NCBI RefSeq assembly: GCF_000219625.1
Contig: NC_018206.1
Span: 496,001-560,000, forward strand
Source: Zymoseptoria tritici IPO323
Taxonomy: Eukaryota > Ascomycota > Dothideomycetes > Mycosphaerellales > Mycosphaerellaceae
Reading direction: 5' to 3'
DNA length: 64,000 nt
Part shown: in pieces, positions 20,756 to 52,030 of the stretch
How the letters are laid out: the number at the start of each line of letters is the position of its first letter
How positions within the stretch are numbered: the first letter of the stretch is position 1
The notes under the pieces: model-generated
The model's database searches: none
Told to the model about the DNA's origin: nothing
The model's input: the letters and a program-made list of their open reading frames with translations, nothing else
Made by a program: the position numbers and the translations under genes

Positions 20756-22930
20756 TCAAGGCGCCAACCTCCAAGCTCTCATCGGCAACGCTTGCAAGCC
20801 CTTCGCCCTCGGCTTAATGAACCCCCAGAATGTAATAATGCCAAAGATGACGCAGAGTACGTTGACCCAATAATATCCGTCTCTTTGGATCTCGCAGCTT
20901 CCACCGCCAGCTGTGCACCTGTGTTTTTCAGCTTCCGCAACGCAGCTGAAAGGTTGCGTGATGAAGTCTCCCGTCAACGCATTCGGCGGGACAGGCGGCT
21001 TTTCCGAGGGTATACAAGTCGCGACGGTGAAGATGTCGACGAATTTGAGGACGAAGAAGCGCGGGAATGTGCCACCTAGGTTGCTCACACTGTAAGAGAT
21101 TGTCAGTCAACTTGCATTTCAGATTCGCCGAGAATGGGAGAAAACTCACGTCGCCAAGAGAGTCATATACGTCCCTCCAATCGCCGGATCAGAGATCTTT
21201 GCGTGGAAAGCGGAGATGGCAACGAACATTACCGTGCTCATGAAGGTGCTGAAGACATGCTCGACAATCACGACGAGCAAGTATGTATTCGTCGTGCCTC
21301 CAGGTGGGAAGAACATGACCACCGCTTGCGCGAAAACGGCGGCCACGAGACGGCCGACGAACGCCCAGCACCAGACGTTGACCGGCTTGTATTGTTCCGA
21401 CCATTTTCCGGCGTAGTAACCCAGCGCGATTTCGAAGGGAAAGTCGATGAGCACTGTCAGGGCAAGGTCTTCTTGGGAGAACCCCTTGTCGAGGAGTTTG
21501 AGATTCGTGACGGCGTCGTTGGCTTGAAATCCGATTTTTGCGATGAGGTGGATGACGATGAAAGTTTGAATGTTCCGCAACCGGAGGATGCCGCCCATGA
21601 TTTTGTACACATCCCAGACGGACTCATTTTCTTTGGTGCGTTCTTCTTTTTTGAGGAATGCGAGTCCGAGGGTGACGAGCAGGTATGCCCAGCCCCAGAA
21701 TGTGAGGTAGGAGTTGAGGGTCATCAGACCAACATCTTGCGGAGTCGAGCGGAAGTATTTGTTTGCGAAGTCGGGGGATTGAAAGGCGAGGAATACGGTG
21801 TAGGAGAGGAATTGGCCGCCTGTCAGACCGACTGTCTGAGCGGTGGAGGCGTATGAGAGGTTGGATTGAGAGAGAAGGGTTAGAGCCCAGCCTGGATGTT
21901 GTTAGCCACGCGTGCAAATTGGCTCCTGGGTATCATATTCCGACTCACCATCAACAGCGATATCCTGCGTCGCACACATGAACACCAACGCGAACCACCA
22001 TCCTGTAAACCCCCAGATCCCGGCACCGTTGTCTGCACCCGCTGTCTCCATCATCTGCTGTGCACTCGCTCCCAACCACAACATGCCAATGCCGCTCAAC
22101 ATCTGAATCGGCAGAATCCAGCTCTTTCTCCTTCCCACCTTCGCACTCCACCATGCATCCACAATCGGACTCCAAAGGAGTTTCAAACTGTATGGATAAC
22201 TCGCCAGCGAGTACACTCCAATTTGTGAGTAACTCAGATGATGCTTCAGCAGGAAAGGTACACTGCCTCCCGCCAGTCCCATGGGTATGCCTTGGAGGAA
22301 GTATAGCAGCACCAGGAGCAGAAAATTCTTCCGATCTTGCAAAGGCAGTTCGAAGAACCCTTTGCTACTCTCCTCTTGCGTGGGTGTGTCTGGAGGCTCA
22401 TTGTCCAAGCTGAACGTATTCCTTCCCATCAAGCGATCTCGAGCGTCGGAGCTGTCTTCATCTTGGATATCGAGTGTGGAAGGGTGTTTCCGCCGCTCGT
22501 GGAATGCTGCGCCGTTCATCTCGGTGCTGGAGGTGTGACCGTTGGGCAGTTCGGTCAAGGAGGACGCGGTCGTCGAGCCGTCCTGGAGGGTCCGACCTCG
22601 AGGGGCGGGCGAGCTCGATTTGGCGGTTTTCTTGGGCATCGAAAAGGGTGGAGGGTTGTTCTGTTGAGGGAGCTGCCGAAGAGAAAAGTCGTCCTCGTCG
22701 TCGTCGTTTCCTTCGTGGCGGAGGGGATGTCGTCCTCTAGCGTCGGTGGAGTCGCGATGCTGGTGGAGCTCCCGCAATGCGACGTCGTCTGCTCCGCGCT
22801 CGAGTTGCCCCTGAGTAGTATGTTCTAGTTCTATTGCTTTGGCTCGATGGACAGGAAGGACGGGTACAATTGCAGTAGAACCAGCAACGACAATGGCAGC
22901 AGGACGACGGTGAAGTTCCGTCTCGTCCAT
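20756..22930 (-). CDS. Acetyl-CoA transporter (SLC33A1/AT-1 family)
   Basis: Three exons (22930-21949, 21891-21150, 21089-20756) join in phase to 685 residues. The first 130 or so residues are hydrophilic. The conserved core then starts LPLQDRKNFLLLVLLYFLQGIPMGLAGGSVPFLL and continues YSLASYPYSLKLLWSPIVDAWW and CATQDIAVDGWAL, all characteristic of Acatn, a major-facilitator family that imports acetyl-CoA into the ER or Golgi lumen. About 11 hydrophobic helices follow. The third exon has paired cysteines in a lumenal loop (CIPSEK...FSC...CTAGGGSC). The start is chosen at the first ATG in frame. The frame continues upstream to 22972 without an ATG. Confidence 0.9.
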
Positions 22931-24206
22931 ACGCCCCAAAATTCTCGAAACTTGCCCCTCCGATCTTGACACGTTCGACAGTCCAGTCCGGACACTGCGG
23001 ATACGCGACCAGGACTTAGCGCCGGGAGATGAGCGCGCGGGAGGAGAAAAGGTTCGGCTCGTGAGCTAGCGACACGTGATATGACGCTACGGTGCAGGAA
23101 GGCGTGAATGTGAATCTTGGAGACGGGAGAGGAGCTTCCACGAACAACATCAATTCTGTCGAATACATTGGCAATATCAACGACCTCCTCGGAGCTCACA
23201 ATGGGTCCTGGGATAAAGAGTGATGTCTCTTACTCCACGTCCACTCCCTGGCCCGTTCAGCCTGACACCGGCCGACAGAAGATATACACGCACAACGCAT
23301 GTCACGGAGCGGCGGCTTCACGATGGTGGGAGTCGACGAATACTTCGTGTTCTGTAATGGCATGCAAGCTCATCATCAGTCAGGTCTGTACCCGCAAAGA
23401 CTGATGATTTCACAGTCCGACCGGCAAACGAGTCATGGACCTCCAACACAACACAAGAACCCAGCAGAATGAAGCTCACCGCTGATTGACACGCCAAGTC
23501 CTGACAGGTCTTGATCGCCAGCGTCAGTGCCATCTCAAAACTCTCCCGAGAATTCGAAACCGCACGGCGTTCATGGACTTTCTCCACCTCCGCGACACTG
23601 CCACTGGGATCGCTTGACCTCTCCCCGCTCCCCGTCTGCCCCGTCTGTTGGTCGGGCTCCGGTTTCATGAATTCTGTGCGATGACAGCGAACATCCCTGT
23701 TCCGTCTTCATCGGCAAAGGTCCCGAGCATCTTCGATTCGCCGGCAATCTGGTTGAATCTGGTTGTTGCAAAACTATTCGCATTCGCTGGCAGCGTGCGC
23801 TGCGCCCTCGGTCAATATTCGCCTCGACGTATGCCTGAACAAATCGCACTATGGCCAGGTTTACGCATGTCAGACGCCAACCTCACCACCTCGTTCGATC
23901 TGCGATTCTTCACCGCATGGTCAAAGCCTGAGTATTTGTGCTGACGAGTCCAATGAACCGCCCAGCCAGCGGATTTATGATGCGGCTGACTTGGAACACA
24001 ACGACTCGGACAAGGTTGTCATGTCTATGAAACCGTTCAAACACGCGAGCAGATGCTCGATTTAGGAGCCACCTCCTGGTAAGTAAAGCCGTGTCTGATC
24101 CTCTCCTCTTTTCAACGCTCTCTCGCCCTCATCTCCCGCAAATCCTCCGCCAGCGCACCTCTTTACACCGCATCCTCTATCTCTCTACCTCGACCCACCA
24201 CCCATC
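22931..24206. other. Intergenic, one possible gene remnant
   Basis: On the - strand, 23318-23668 and the frame before it hold short peptides that read sensibly (for example FATTRFNQIAG and GTFADEDGTGMFAVI). They are broken by stops, and no complete model could be built. The 3' end is the promoter of the next gene, with a CT-rich stretch at 24100-24200. Confidence 0.3.
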
Positions 24207-25672
24207 ATGGCGCACAACGAAGACACTCCACCTCACATCGTCCCGGCGACAGACAACCAAGCCGCAGCCCCATACGTCCCTTATCAAGACGCAATGTACT
24301 ACAATGCCAACCCGCGGCAGCGTAGGAGCAATCACCAGTATCGAGACTCCCGCGACAACGATCTGCGCGACGACAGTTACCGAAACTCCCGAAGGAACTC
24401 CCGCGAGGACAACGACTTCCCTAACGAAAACCTCTACCGCCGCTCTTACAAGAATGCCAACGGTCGAAACCGTGTTGTGGAAGAACATACTCATCGCCGC
24501 CGCCGCTATCGACCGTCCTCTCCCAACGGCAATGGCAACGGAGTCAACCTTGATTCTCCTTTACGTTCAGATGAAGCCGATGTCGATGCCGCGAACGGGA
24601 TTCAAGAAGACCACCGTCCTTCACCGAAAGACTTTTTCGGTATTTCCGACATGGCGCAAGTACGGCGTGGAGGCGTCGGAGGTGTTGGAGAAGATGAACC
24701 TGAATTGGATGAGTATGGGCGACGGACGCTACACGCTGCGGCTTTGGCGAACGCACGTCGCGGCATGGGAATGGGCGGACCTGGCGGAGAGTATTATTCC
24801 GGTGCGGAGTACGCGGACGCACGCAGGAGAGGCCAGTATGATTCTCCGAATCGCGACGAAAACGGGTATCGACGACGAAAAGGGAGGAGAGATGATGAGT
24901 CCGATGATGAACGTTCTTCTAGACATGATTCGCAGCGGGACTCCCAGCGGAGCTCTCAGCGGGAAAGAGACCGGTCGCGGAGAAGAGGCGGCGACGGCGC
25001 GAGAGGTGTGAGGACGAAGCGTGACTGGGAAAGGGAAGCGGAGGAAGCAGAGCAGCATCGGCCGAAGGAGAGTTATACGTTGATGAAAGCGGCGAAGAGT
25101 GCTCTTATGGCTGGAGGCGCGGAGGTATGCTTCCATTTCCATTCCTCCCACCCGTCCCCTCTCCGCAATCAAAATCATGGAACGAAACTGACATGCGTCT
25201 CTCCCAGGCCTTCCGCTGCCGCCAAGAACCCGGCTCCTGGTCCGGACAGAAAGGTAAACGCGTTGCCCTCGCTGCCACCACGGGCGTCCTCATTGGGACC
25301 CTGCGCAACGGGCGCTTGTTGAACAGCGGGAAGATGCCGTATGCCGAAGCGGCGATGACGGGATTCTATTCCATTGACTTCCTCAAGCGGGTCATTCGAC
25401 ACACGGAATTTGATAAGAATTCGAAGAACGAAAAACGGGATTGGAGGGAGGAGGCGAGAGGGGAGGCACCTTGGCAAGTCGCGGATGAGGAGGACGAGAA
25501 CGAGGAGGGTGAGCAAGATGGCGGAAATGAGAAAGGTGGGAAGGACGGGAAAGATGGGAAAGGACAGGATGGGAAGAGTGAGAAAGGTGGAAAGAGCGAA
25601 AGGGGAGGAAAAAGCGAGAGAGACGAGAGCAGGGGAAGGGGTAGGGAAAGGGAGAGAAGCAGGAGGAGGTGA
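24207..25672 (+). CDS. Arg/Asp/Ser-rich protein with conserved Gly-rich core
   Basis: Two exons (24207-25124 and 25208-25672, intron 83 bp) join in phase to 460 residues ending at TGA 25670-25672. The N-terminal two thirds is hydrophilic, with many RR, SR and DR pairs. Residues about 290-385 form an ordered block: YTLMKAAKSALMAGGAEAFR, EPGSWSGQKGKRVALAATTG and PYAEAAMTGFYSIDFLKRV. I have seen this type of block in uncharacterised Pezizomycotina proteins annotated with DUF3824-like repeats, but I am not certain. The tail is Lys/Gly/Glu/Asp-rich. The frame does not end biologically at the TGA; see the next entry. Role unknown. The SR/RD-rich ends resemble RNA-binding nuclear proteins. Confidence 0.7.
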
Positions 25673-26134
25673 CTAGCTTCGGAACGAGAGCGGAGGGATG
25701 AGCGACGATATGATGATCGACGCTCCGACGACAGCCGCTCCAGTGACAGCCGCTCAGATGACAGCCGTCGCTACGATGACAGACGATCCAATGACGGTAG
25801 AAGGCGGAGAAATAACAGGGGAGATGACAGGAGAGACGACAGGAGAGACGACAGAAGGGATGACAGAAGGGATGACAGGAGAGCCGATCGAAGATCCGAC
25901 AAAAGGCGAAAAGACGACGGGAGAGACAGACGATCCGACAGCAGCTCCTCCGACTCCAGATCGCGGAAGGATGTGCGAGTCGACGAGGAACTTAGAGGCC
26001 TAAGCAAAGAGATGCAAGGCCAAGGCGATGAAAAGGAAAAGCCGCAGAGACCGGGACATAGCAGGCACCAAACGGCCCAGACGAACCAGAGCGAGGGCTA
26101 CAGATGGTGGAATACTCCTGTTCTGTTCTATTGA
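25673..26134 (+). other. In-frame C-terminal extension beyond TGA-CTA-G
   Basis: After TGA at 25670 the same frame stays open for 153 codons to TGA 26132-26134. It reads ERERRDERRYDDRR, then tandem RRDD units, then a serine-rich segment and a final YRWWNTPVLFY. Composition is continuous with the upstream protein, so this is coding sequence, not chance. The stop sits in TGA CTA G, the context known from mammals and fungi to give efficient ribosomal readthrough. A rival explanation is a short intron with donor GTGACT at 25669 and an AG in one of several GACAGC units near 25733. These units would also keep the frame. Confidence 0.7.
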
Positions 26135-26569
26135 GTTGGCCTAAAGGAGCGAGGCCTTTGGGAGGCTTCACGGATGAGATTGGTTCTTGTTCTTGTTGGC
26201 CGGATACCTTGGATGCGTGGTCTGTGTAATATAGCTCCTCTTCGAGTCAACCTATCGGTATACATATGGATTGCAATCCAATCAACAGTGCCACCAATAT
26301 CTGCTTCCTGTTTCAGCTGATGTCGTCTTCAGACGCGTATGTACTCTGTACTCCGTAGACCACACTAGCGCCAGATTCTGCCAAGGCCATCCAAAGCTTC
26401 TCAGTCAGCTTCACGACTTCCAGGTTGAATCTTTGAAGACTTCCACGACCGAGCCCGTAACAATCCTCTCCACCACCGCGCGCACGACTTCGACTCACCA
26501 CACTTGCACCAATTCATCAAGCTAATTCAGTCGCCGCACGTATCAACGCCTGAACGCAATCTCCTCACC
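26135..26569. other. Intergenic, promoter of SF3A1
   Basis: 435 bp between two genes on the same strand. The frame of the next gene is open upstream to 26504, but the first ATG with good context (CACCATGG) is at 26570. Confidence 0.4.
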
Positions 26570-28132
26570 ATGGCCGCGCCCAACGGCGACTCCGCCGCGC
26601 CCGCCGACGACGACCTCGCCCACAAAGTCCCAGCCGGCACCGTCCTTCCCCCCAAAGTTGTGCGCAGCAAGATCGAAAAAGTCGCTTCATACGTCGCCCG
26701 CGCCGGCGAGAAATTCGAAGACTCGGTCCGACAAAAGAATGCCGGCACAAACCAGACCACTTTCCTCGAACCGGACGATCCATACTTCCCTTACTACAAA
26801 TGGCGCGTGGGCGAGATAAAAGCTGGTCGAGGTCACGATCCGGATAATAATGCTGCGGCGAAGACGGAGGTCACATTCCAGGGACGAGAGTCGAGGGCGC
26901 CGAAGCCGCCAGCGGAGTTCAAGTTCAGCGCGCGCATGCCGAATATTTCGGCGCAGGATTTGGAGATTGTCAAGGTGACGGCGCTGTATGCGGCGAAGAA
27001 CGGGAGGAGTTGGGTCACGGCGTTGAGTCAACGGGAAGGAGGCAATTATCAATTTGATTTCTTGAGGCCACAGCATTCGTTGAATATGTTCTATACGAAG
27101 CTGGTGGATCAGTACAAAGACTTGTTGGAAGGGGAGACGGCGGATGGTGGGAAGCCGCAGAGAGAGAGGATTGCGGATCTGGAGGCGAATGTCGGCGACC
27201 GATTTCGCATGCTGGAGAGGGCGAAGAAGAGGGCCGAGTGGTTGAAGTGGCAGGAGAAGCAGAAAGTCGAGACGGAGCAGAAGGAGGAGAAGGACCGCAT
27301 TGCGTTTGCGGAGATTGATTGGCATGACTTCACGGTCGTGGCTACGGTTGTGTTTGACGAGAGGGACGAGCAGGCGGATATGCCGGCGCCGAAGACGCTG
27401 AACGACATGCTCTCACTAAGTCTGGAAGAGAAGGCGAATATGCGGGTGGGAGTTGACAAGCGACTCGAGGAGGCAGTGCCGGACTTCACTGACTACGAGG
27501 CGATTTATGGACATGCACAGCCTATGCCTGCTGCACAGATGCCCGCGCCTCAGCAGCAGTACACACCGCAGCCGTCAGTATCCAGCTCTCAGCGATTGCA
27601 ACAGACTACTGACACAGATAACAGCACACCACCCCAAGCAACGCCATATATCCCACCACAAGCGCCCACCCTTGCAGCAGAGCGAGAAAACGCTCGCGCT
27701 GCCACAAAATCCGCTCAACCCACCACCCGCATCCGCAACGACTACATCCCGCAAGCGCAACTTCGCGCACAACGCAACCCCGCCAACACCTCGATCTGCC
27801 CCAACTGCAACCTCGCCTTCCCCAACGACGAGATGGCCGAACACATGCGGATTGAAATGCTGGATCCACAATGGAGAGAGCAAAGCAGGAAAGACCAGAT
27901 GAGGAGTTCGACGACGAATCTGAGCACGAGTGATGTGGCCACGAATCTGAAGAGGCTGGCGAGTCAGAGGAGCGATGTCTTCGATCCGGCCGTAAGTGCT
28001 CACGGCGTGCAGAATGGGAATGAGAGAGGAGCCAAGAGGGTTGAGGTTGAGAAAGGAGTCGGTCATCAAGCGCCGCCTGGGACGGACGTGAAGGAGCAGA
28101 TAAGGAGTTTGCACGAAAAGTATAAGAAGTGA
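26570..28132 (+). CDS. SF3A1: Splicing factor 3A subunit 1 (SF3A1/Prp21/Sap114)
   Basis: An intronless frame encodes 520 residues. Two SURP (SWAP) modules are visible. The first is at about 35-85 (KIEKVASYVARAGEKFEDSV...PYFPYYKWRV), the second at about 125-185 (DLEIVKVTALYAAKNGRSWVTAL...FDFLRPQHSLNMFY). A PRP21-like region with WHDFTVVATVVF at about 255-268 follows. Near the end is a C-x-x-C...H segment (CPNCNLAFPNDEMAEHMRIEML). This is the U2 snRNP SF3a subunit, which uses its second SURP to bind SF3a60 and is needed for pre-spliceosome assembly. The ubiquitin-like domain found at the end of animal SF3A1 is absent, as usual in fungi. Confidence 0.93.
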   Translation: MAAPNGDSAAPADDDLAHKVPAGTVLPPKVVRSKIEKVASYVARAGEKFEDSVRQKNAGTNQTTFLEPDDPYFPYYKWRVGEIKAGRGHDPDNNAAAKTEVTFQGRESRAPKPPAEFKFSARMPNISAQDLEIVKVTALYAAKNGRSWVTALSQREGGNYQFDFLRPQHSLNMFYTKLVDQYKDLLEGETADGGKPQRERIADLEANVGDRFRMLERAKKRAEWLKWQEKQKVETEQKEEKDRIAFAEIDWHDFTVVATVVFDERDEQADMPAPKTLNDMLSLSLEEKANMRVGVDKRLEEAVPDFTDYEAIYGHAQPMPAAQMPAPQQQYTPQPSVSSSQRLQQTTDTDNSTPPQATPYIPPQAPTLAAERENARAATKSAQPTTRIRNDYIPQAQLRAQRNPANTSICPNCNLAFPNDEMAEHMRIEMLDPQWREQSRKDQMRSSTTNLSTSDVATNLKRLASQRSDVFDPAVSAHGVQNGNERGAKRVEVEKGVGHQAPPGTDVKEQIRSLHEKYKK

Positions 28133-50172: not shown

Positions 50173-51381
50173 GGCGACGGAGGTGATGTTTCGTTCGAGT
50201 CGGTGGTCGCCCTCGAGGGTTTGATAGACCTATATCGTGGGGAGCTTCACGCGCTCATGCGGCGAGCAAGGATGATCTTCAGCCGCTGAAACCTTGACAG
50301 CTGAAGGGGAACGCGTCCGTGATGAAATTGAAGTGAATGAACGACGGCGAGCAATCAAGCACGCGAAGAAGAGTAGAAGGGAGGAAAGAAGAAAATGTAG
50401 CAGTTCACCAAAGGAGGTGAATTGTGGATGAAGACAGGAGTATGAATGGATTGGACGGGATGCAGCTCTCAGCTTCCGGGTCGCTCTCTCCCAATCCTCG
50501 CCGATACGTGTCGTGTATTTTCAGGGCGCGGAACACGACCAATCCAGGGGTCCAGTTCGGGTCCAGTTCGGGTCCACGTTCTCTAGCGCGATCCTCAGAA
50601 ATGCTTCTTCGATGAGACATTGAATCTTGATCTAAATTGCCATCCATCTCCATCAACGATATACGCTGGCCCATCATGTTCGACATAACTTATCCGCCGT
50701 GGTCATTGCCTGCTCGGCGCCGCCGCCACGCACAGACGTCTACAAGGCTTTGAAGCAGTTGAAGCAGTACGCGCCACGACGCTGACCCGCATGCCCGCAT
50801 ACACGAACGTCGATTACAGAGCCTCTTACTGCAGACATGCATCAAGGACTGACTGGCTTGATTGGCCTGCGAAGATGGTTCGGTCTTCCAGTCTCTCTCG
50901 GACCAGCCTTAGAGCCTGCGAATGGCACGCTGTTCGCTTCAAGGCCAGAGTCCAGCTATATACAGACTCTCATCGCACCCATGCCACCTCATGGCACATC
51001 ATCGAAGGAAACGTCTCACGACATCTCGCGATTAGCACTGAGAGAGGAAGAACGAGCCTGCTGCTTCAGCACTCCATCTGAAGCCACATCAATCCCGCGT
51101 TACCTACAAGCGAGCGCTTCGTTAACGACTTTATTGGGTTCGACTCCTGCACTCCGCCTTGTACGATGAGCGGGTAGAGGTACGCGGTCTTTGGAGTGTC
51201 TCGATTTCTTTCGCTCAATCTGCTTTGCTGCTGCGGTTTTCCTTAAATTTCTTCGATCATTGATTCTGTGATATGAATACGCTGTCTGCTATTAATCTTA
51301 GTGTCGGCTTTGCACTAGCAGCACTACGAGCACACGGCGAAAGGATTTCCAGGCGCTCATGGCGCTCGCCATCTTTACAAC
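50173..51381. other. Intergenic, nothing recognised
   Basis: PMT1 promoter on the left and possibly the start region of the next frame on the right. Two adjacent copies of TCCAGTTCGGG occur at about 50552-50573. Confidence 0.35.
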
Positions 51382-52030
51382 ATGCTCGGTGGACGAGTAT
51401 ACGACATCGACTTCATGACCGCGCGGAAACAGCTGTCACAGGAAGAGCCACTAGCCACAGACACCATCACTCTCGCCCTGCCCTGCCGCAACAACCCCTC
51501 CGAGACCGTGACCATGCTTGTGCCCTCCAAAGAGCAAGCCATAATCGCCCACCTCCTGGACTGCCTTCTCTGGAACCATCTCTCATGGAGCATGCATCGC
51601 GGCCTCCGCGACATCCTCCTTGCCTACTCCAAACCCATCATGGACTCCCACCGCTCTCTACTCACAGACCTCTGTCCGCGAAACGGTAACCATCAACCCC
51701 GAAGCTCTCATCGCGCAAGGCTGGCATCCGCACATCGTCCGTTCCAGCATGGGCGACATGGCTGCTTCAGCCATCTTGGCCAGGCAAGGCGACTCGGGCG
51801 ATCTCGTGCGGGTCGTCACTGCGATTGTGCGAGTCATTGCGGAAGGGTGGAGTGTGGAAGAGCTGGACTGCGTAGACTTTTGGCGACGGCAGGGCGCCGG
51901 GCGGAGCGTGTTGGAGCGGCTCGATGTCGCTTCCGCCGTTGCGCTTACAAAAGTGTTCGTTGTGGAGCGGAGCCAGGAATTTGACTATCAGATGTATCAC
52001 GACTTGCCGACGTCGCGGTACTTTGCCTAG
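51382..52030 (+). pseudogene. Unidentified protein, frame broken once
   Basis: From ATG 51382 a frame reads plausibly to about 51640 (RVYDIDFMTARKQLSQEEPL, SKEQAIIAHLLDCLLWNHLSW). From about 51668 the sensible frame shifts by one base (ETVTINPEALIAQGWHPHIV, GDMAASAILARQGD, FDYQMYHDLPTSRYFA) to TAG 52030. Both halves look like one protein of about 215 residues. An intron 51520-51667 would restore phase, but its donor GTGCCC is poor and it would remove well-formed helix sequence. A frameshift, natural or a sequencing error, is equally possible. No family was recognised and no signal peptide is present. Confidence 0.4.

Follow-up and report, generated by a model that had tools for sequence, protein, structure and literature searches.

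Where the protein MYCGRDRAFT_97369 of Zymoseptoria tritici IPO323 (P0001 in the public record) comes to an end is the question raised by this locus. Its gene lies in a window of 64,000 nucleotides (C13:496001-560000), the whole stretch of DNA analysed, in a genome of 39,686,251 bases on 21 contigs. The main frame runs from ATG 24207 across an intron at 25125-25207 to TGA 25670-25672 and specifies 460 amino acids. Beyond this TGA the same frame stays open for 153 codons (25673-26131), up to a second TGA at 26132-26134. An initial annotation had pointed to the stop at 25670 and to the 153 open codons after it, and the bases TGACTAG at 25670-25676 and the frame that follows bear this out. The features on which the argument rests are collected in the table.

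Table. Features of the host gene, its candidate extension and its neighbour (positions within the window)
Feature	Positions	Strand	Evidence
Exon 1: R/D/S-containing N-terminal region, first part of the conserved domain	24207..25124	+	Open frame from ATG 24207; relatives P0002-P0008
Intron, 83 nt, GTATGC...CCCAG	25125..25207	+	CTGAC branch-like site at 25188
Exon 2 including TGA: end of the conserved domain, K/E/G linker, tail DESRGRGRERERSRRR	25208..25672	+	Frame; orthologue alignment; C-termini of P0002 and P0003
Intron of the public model (486 aa, P0001), into the frame ending at 26003; judged unlikely	25578..25743	+	Exact reconstruction; no branch motif
Small in-frame intron of the initial annotation, 66 nt; judged unlikely	25669..25734	+	Donor GTGACT; no CTRAC/YTNAY
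Stop and leaky-type context TGA CTA G	25670..25676	+	Bases read TGACTAG
In-frame extension, 153 codons, and second stop TGA	25673..26134	+	Open frame; 21 of 5,000 shuffles
Degenerate array of 15-nt repeats, RSDDS-like when read in the frame of the extension	25721..25795	+	Tandem Repeats Finder; phase of changes
Degenerate 12-nt repeat array	25806..25883	+	Tandem Repeats Finder; from 25823, five DDRR copies in the frame of the extension
Neighbouring gene, PRP21/SF3a1-like splicing factor	26570..28132	+	Pfam Surp and PRP21_like_P on frame 26429-28129

Removal of the intron at 25125-25207 joins the conserved domain, and the spliced protein aligns to orthologues across the junction. Seven relatives, P0002-P0008, carry a close version of this domain; five of the seven bear fungal names, P0005 being from Zasmidium. 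A profile search relates it distantly to DUF3824 proteins, with three proteins of that name at E values from 6e-6 to 6e-4, among them Aspergillus nidulans AN1250 at 6e-6. Unlike DUF3824 proteins, the 460-residue protein lacks a Pfam DUF3824 (PF12868) match, with 0 families at E <= 10. Elsewhere in the genome, a single Pfam DUF3824 match above the cut-off was found among three candidates scored, at C6:2382869-2383423. In a predicted structure of the orthologue P0002 the conserved domain consists of three long helices, but this model is of low confidence (mean pLDDT 50, with 193 of 325 residues below 50), and so is the assignment of a helical segment. Literature searches outside subscription papers and preprints, both on DUF3824 and by locus names, returned nothing, and within the same scope the literature on readthrough in Zymoseptoria or Mycosphaerella graminicola held no report on MYCGRDRAFT_97369. 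Downstream, the PRP21/SF3a1-like gene begins on the same strand at ATG 26570 and bounds the host gene on its 3′ side. Upstream, an acetyl-coenzyme A transporter lies on the minus strand at 21902-22969 (PF13000, E 3e-45), with a 251-codon open run past its TAA that probably consists of an intron and the exon after it. A scan for bacterial promoters and terminators gave nothing useful.

The sequence around the TGA shows features of the UGA CUA class: UGA followed by CUA, a G in fourth place, and an in-frame extension to a later stop. In both fungi and animals, termination is reported to be weak at UGA CUA (G) (PMC4207609); the initial annotation had likewise named it as a known high-readthrough context. 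Three human UGA CUA contexts are given readthrough of 0.6-2.3% in HeLa reporters (PMC4359377), and the sequence upstream of the stop is described as a further influence (PMC12233894). The context is rare here. Across a reference set of 264 kb, made up of the window and 20 sampled stretches of the genome, CTA follows 55 of 8,701 TGA triplets and CTAG follows 9 of 8,701. The 120 bases downstream of the stop show no unusual RNA fold that might stimulate readthrough (45 of 200 shuffles fold equally well, z -0.77), so that if readthrough occurs, its likely scale would be a basal level near 1%, judging from other organisms.

How often the frame after the stop would be open by chance was gauged with dinucleotide shuffles of the 459 bases at 25673-26131, which do not model the repeats there: 21 of 5,000 shuffles contained no in-frame stop. 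Of 72 non-overlapping long ORFs in the 264 kb, 71 were scorable, and one of these 71 has at least 153 open codons past its stop; runs of at least 100 codons follow seven of the 71, and some of those are probably introns. Stops preceded by 150 or more open codons and followed by 100 or more number 31 in the reference set, two of them TGA CTA. The second of these, at 51982, apparently lies in an overlapping wrong frame and appears to be due to chance. TGA CTA and a long open frame can thus meet by coincidence, and their combination at 25670 is unusual but falls short of proof. In the same region, the open frame at 51319-52030 (MLGGRVYDIDFMTARK...) seems to switch frame near 51690 into ...RETVTINPEALIAQGW..., perhaps through an unannotated intron or because the gene is broken; neither piece has a Pfam match.

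The repeats within the extension offer a more direct view of coding. Five successive 12-base copies from 25823 all read DDRR in the gene frame, where their pairwise codon differences are without exception synonymous (18 synonymous to 0 non-synonymous); the corresponding counts for the two remaining frames are 0:18 and 0:20. Among 15-nt copies registered by hand the contrast is weaker, at 9:18 in the gene frame and 6:25 in each of the others. Compared with perfect 12- and 15-base arrays built by hand, the extension shows 24 differences in the gene frame, 14 at third, seven at first and three at second positions (binomial 0.010). Counting by column in the hand-registered units puts eight of 12 changes on third positions, with a binomial value of 0.019 and 0.004 from column permutation. 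In a register-free scan of the extension, third positions hold 68 of the 126 mismatches, a level reached by one of 500 simulations; in exon 2 they hold 47 of 94. Units cut mechanically at Tandem Repeats Finder coordinates show no third-position bias (counts of 3,0,3 and 6,4,5), the second of these sets being out of register owing to one extra codon. Scored for codon usage in six frames, the extension is negative in each of the three forward ones, and the gene frame is not the best. This measure is not decisive, because the low-complexity part of the real exon 2 scores badly too. Together these patterns give a modest signal, within this one sequence, that the same frame after the stop has been subject to protein-level constraint.

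Composition is a poorer guide. From a composition like that before the stop, the initial annotation had concluded that the extension is coding. This was too strong, and the third-position bias among repeat copies is the better evidence. The likeness holds for the first 95 residues of the extension (R 37%, D 29%, S 17%) and, in milder form, for residues 1-284 of the host protein (R 18%, D 11%, S 8%). It fails for residues 386-460, directly before the stop, which are rich in G and E (G 21%, E 21%, R 16%, K 11%), and for the last 58 residues of the extension (R 12%, D 5%). Predicted peptides of the extension include HQTAQTNQSEGYR, WWNTPVLFY and EMQGQGDEK. The last 58 residues have no homologue at E <= 10 among six candidates from the protein collection. 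That null says little, because the search with the main domain also listed no other Zymoseptoria protein, either among its best 7,991 or among its best 7,990 candidates by shared words. A scan of viral contigs for relatives with DNA found none.

These observations bear first on the possibility that the TGA is the sole true stop, the purine-rich repeats being 3′ UTR that is open by chance and any leakage functionless noise. Such a reading is favoured by codon usage past the stop that is not gene-like, by a tail lacking a homologue, by the lack of phase bias in mechanically cut units and by the occurrence of other long open runs after stops, and it agrees with the ends of the two orthologues that stop at this TGA. 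Against it stand the rarity with which shuffles keep the frame open, a third-position bias that falls precisely in the gene frame, and the rarity of the leaky context. We regard it as unlikely, although it survives the evidence better than the other alternatives.

How old the stop is can be read from orthologue ends. The IPO323 protein ends in DESRGRGRERERSRRR before the TGA, P0002 in DEGRGRSRSRSRRR and P0003, from Lecanosticta acicola, in DEDRGSSRSRTRSRRR. We slid orthologue tails along the 460-residue protein joined to its extension, excluding windows that span the stop; the comparison took in four of the seven relatives, P0002, P0003, P0007 and P0008. For the last 16 residues of P0003 the best window ends at the TGA (rank 1 of 583), with the window ending at residue 260 second, and for the last 14 residues of P0002 the best window again ends at the TGA (rank 1 of 587). 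With the last 10 residues of either protein the window ending at the TGA comes first of 595, in the case of P0003 tied with the residue-260 window. The tails of P0007 and P0008, two more remote relatives from Teratosphaeria, do not place at the stop (ranks 207 and 85 of 595). The stop is thus the best-matching end in two of the four relatives tested, and those two, P0002 and P0003, are the best-scoring orthologues. Being the usual protein end in these relatives speaks against a recent lesion, and from this comparison TGA 25670 looks like an old, native stop. The recorded proteins of all seven relatives lack the RD-rich extension, although an extension made by readthrough would go unrecorded.

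A nonsense mutation, in the isolate or in the species, could also have truncated a once longer protein and left the downstream coding signature as a relic. It would account for R/E-rich sequence in one frame on both sides of the stop, as well as for the coding signature past it. The position of the stop at the C-terminus of the two best-scoring orthologues weighs against such a lesion, as does the lack of a recorded RD-rich extension in P0002-P0008, within the limit just given. A random lesion would, moreover, seldom fall before CTA, whose share of codons in long ORFs is 145 of 23,945. We consider this explanation decidedly improbable.

Splicing, constitutive or alternative, is the other way in which the stop could be removed, whether through 25669-25734, through another in-frame pair or through the intron of the public model. 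An intron here would be expected to carry a branch-site motif of the form CTRAC or YTNAY and a donor close to GTRNGT. The interval 25480-26131 contains neither CTRAC nor YTNAY, whereas the real intron at 25125-25207 has CTGAC at 25188. Possible junctions are nevertheless plentiful: six GT donors (25480-25670) and 36 AG acceptors (25690-25959) allow 61 in-frame combinations, each spanning 40 bases or more, in which the stop is removed. A YAG acceptor is used in 21 of the 61, of which 16 start from GTGACT 25669 and five share the acceptor at 25757. Scored with a rough donor matrix built from 31 candidate acceptors, GTGAGC 25509 (2.1 bits) and GTGAGA 25578 (1.74 bits) exceed the real intron's GTATGC (1.52 bits), whereas GTGACT 25669 reaches 0.53 bits, is third of the six and lacks the usual +5 G. 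Each of the two stronger donors has one in-frame YAG acceptor, at 25757, and use of these upstream donors would excise the tail that matches the orthologue ends. For the small intron proposed in the initial annotation, 66 nt long, both ends exist, GTGACT at 25669 and a CAG that keeps the frame at 25734, but neither a +5 G nor a branch motif supports it, and the segment itself, when read in the gene frame, gives R/E/D-rich protein.

The public model places an intron here as well. Its 486 residues are reproduced exactly by introns at 24836-24922, 25125-25207 and 25578-25743, the last of which skips the stop by jumping to another frame that ends at 26003. No CTRAC/YTNAY branch motif occurs in 24836-24922 or in 25578-25743. 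The repeat signal contradicts the frame that the model enters past its last intron, where the changes among the 12-nt copies are all non-synonymous (0:18), and the model probably reads the wrong frame after the stop. Separately, its in-frame 87-base intron at 24836-24922, within exon 1, may be spurious or may represent an alternative form. Taking together the wealth of pairs, the two high-scoring donors and the public annotation on one side, and the missing branch motif, the lack of a +5 G at GTGACT, the protein-like reading of 25669-25734, the loss of the orthologue-matching tail with the upstream donors and the repeat signal against the public model's frame on the other, we rank intron removal as the least probable of these three alternatives.

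Two further routes were rejected: A-to-I RNA editing, which favours an A after U and has been described in Sordariomycetes, as the A of this stop comes after G, and selenocysteine insertion at the TGA, which is not known from ascomycetes.

Readthrough of a native, leaky stop is the best supported of the four readings, at close to even odds (about 0.5) on the sequence evidence. The 460-residue protein would be made as the main product and end at the old TGA 25670, while the TGA CTA G context would lead a small share of ribosomes to insert an amino acid and continue for 153 codons, yielding small amounts of a form about 614 residues long, whose mixed-charge tail is rich in arginine and aspartate. 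Its level would be near 1% if the human-cell figures for UGA CUA apply. The proposal of two forms made in the initial annotation is partly supported, as a prediction, by the rare context, the modest coding signature, the ends of the two best-scoring orthologues and the lack of a branch motif.

More tentatively, and on balance rather doubtfully, the leaky stop could serve to attach the 153-residue R/D mixed-charge tail to a small share of the product. Arginine-rich mixed-charge domains, composed mainly of R and D, are described as accumulating in nuclear speckles or the nucleolus according to their patterning (PMC9324279). An altered nuclear placement of the protein is accordingly the most natural guess at function, and if it is right, the readthrough rate would set the share of protein that enters RNA-rich nuclear bodies. 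This would be a fungal use of readthrough other than peroxisomal targeting, and so long a mixed-charge extension would show leaky stops varying disordered, condensate-type parts of proteins in fungi. Similar genes may be mis-annotated where gene finders add introns to avoid stops.

Known fungal readthrough cases mostly add short peroxisome signals, and GAPDH, PGK and TPI are fungal readthrough genes. The extension described here ends in VLFY, which we take not to be PTS1-like. Taken as a positive control, these genes count against the readthrough reading: with gene frames judged from open-frame lengths, TGA CTA is found at none of the three GAPDH, PGK and TPI genes of this genome, nor at a second TIM-family locus: GAPDH ends in TAA, PGK and TPI in TGA ATC, and the second TIM-family locus in TAG CCG. 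The next in-frame stretches after PGK and TPI end in ...GTKL and ISNRL, ends that loosely resemble weak peroxisomal signals, possibly by chance.

The closest known systems are the UGA CUA (G) genes, described for LDHB, MDH1 and AQP4 of mammals and for fungal glycolytic enzymes (PMC4207609, PMC4359377), with which the host gene shares UGA-CUA-G and an in-frame extension. Whereas the known fungal UGA CUA cases add a short peroxisomal signal, the predicted readthrough at this locus would add 153 residues rich in R and D. A second point of comparison is YIP3 of filamentous ascomycetes, whose programmed -1 frameshift is also discussed for Mycosphaerella graminicola (PMC3777964). YIP3 and the candidate described here are alike in that two polypeptides come, or would come, from one mRNA by recoding; they differ in the device, since ribosomes on YIP3 shift frame at a slippery site accompanied by a pseudoknot or stem-loop (PMC3777964), whereas on the host gene they would read through a stop codon.
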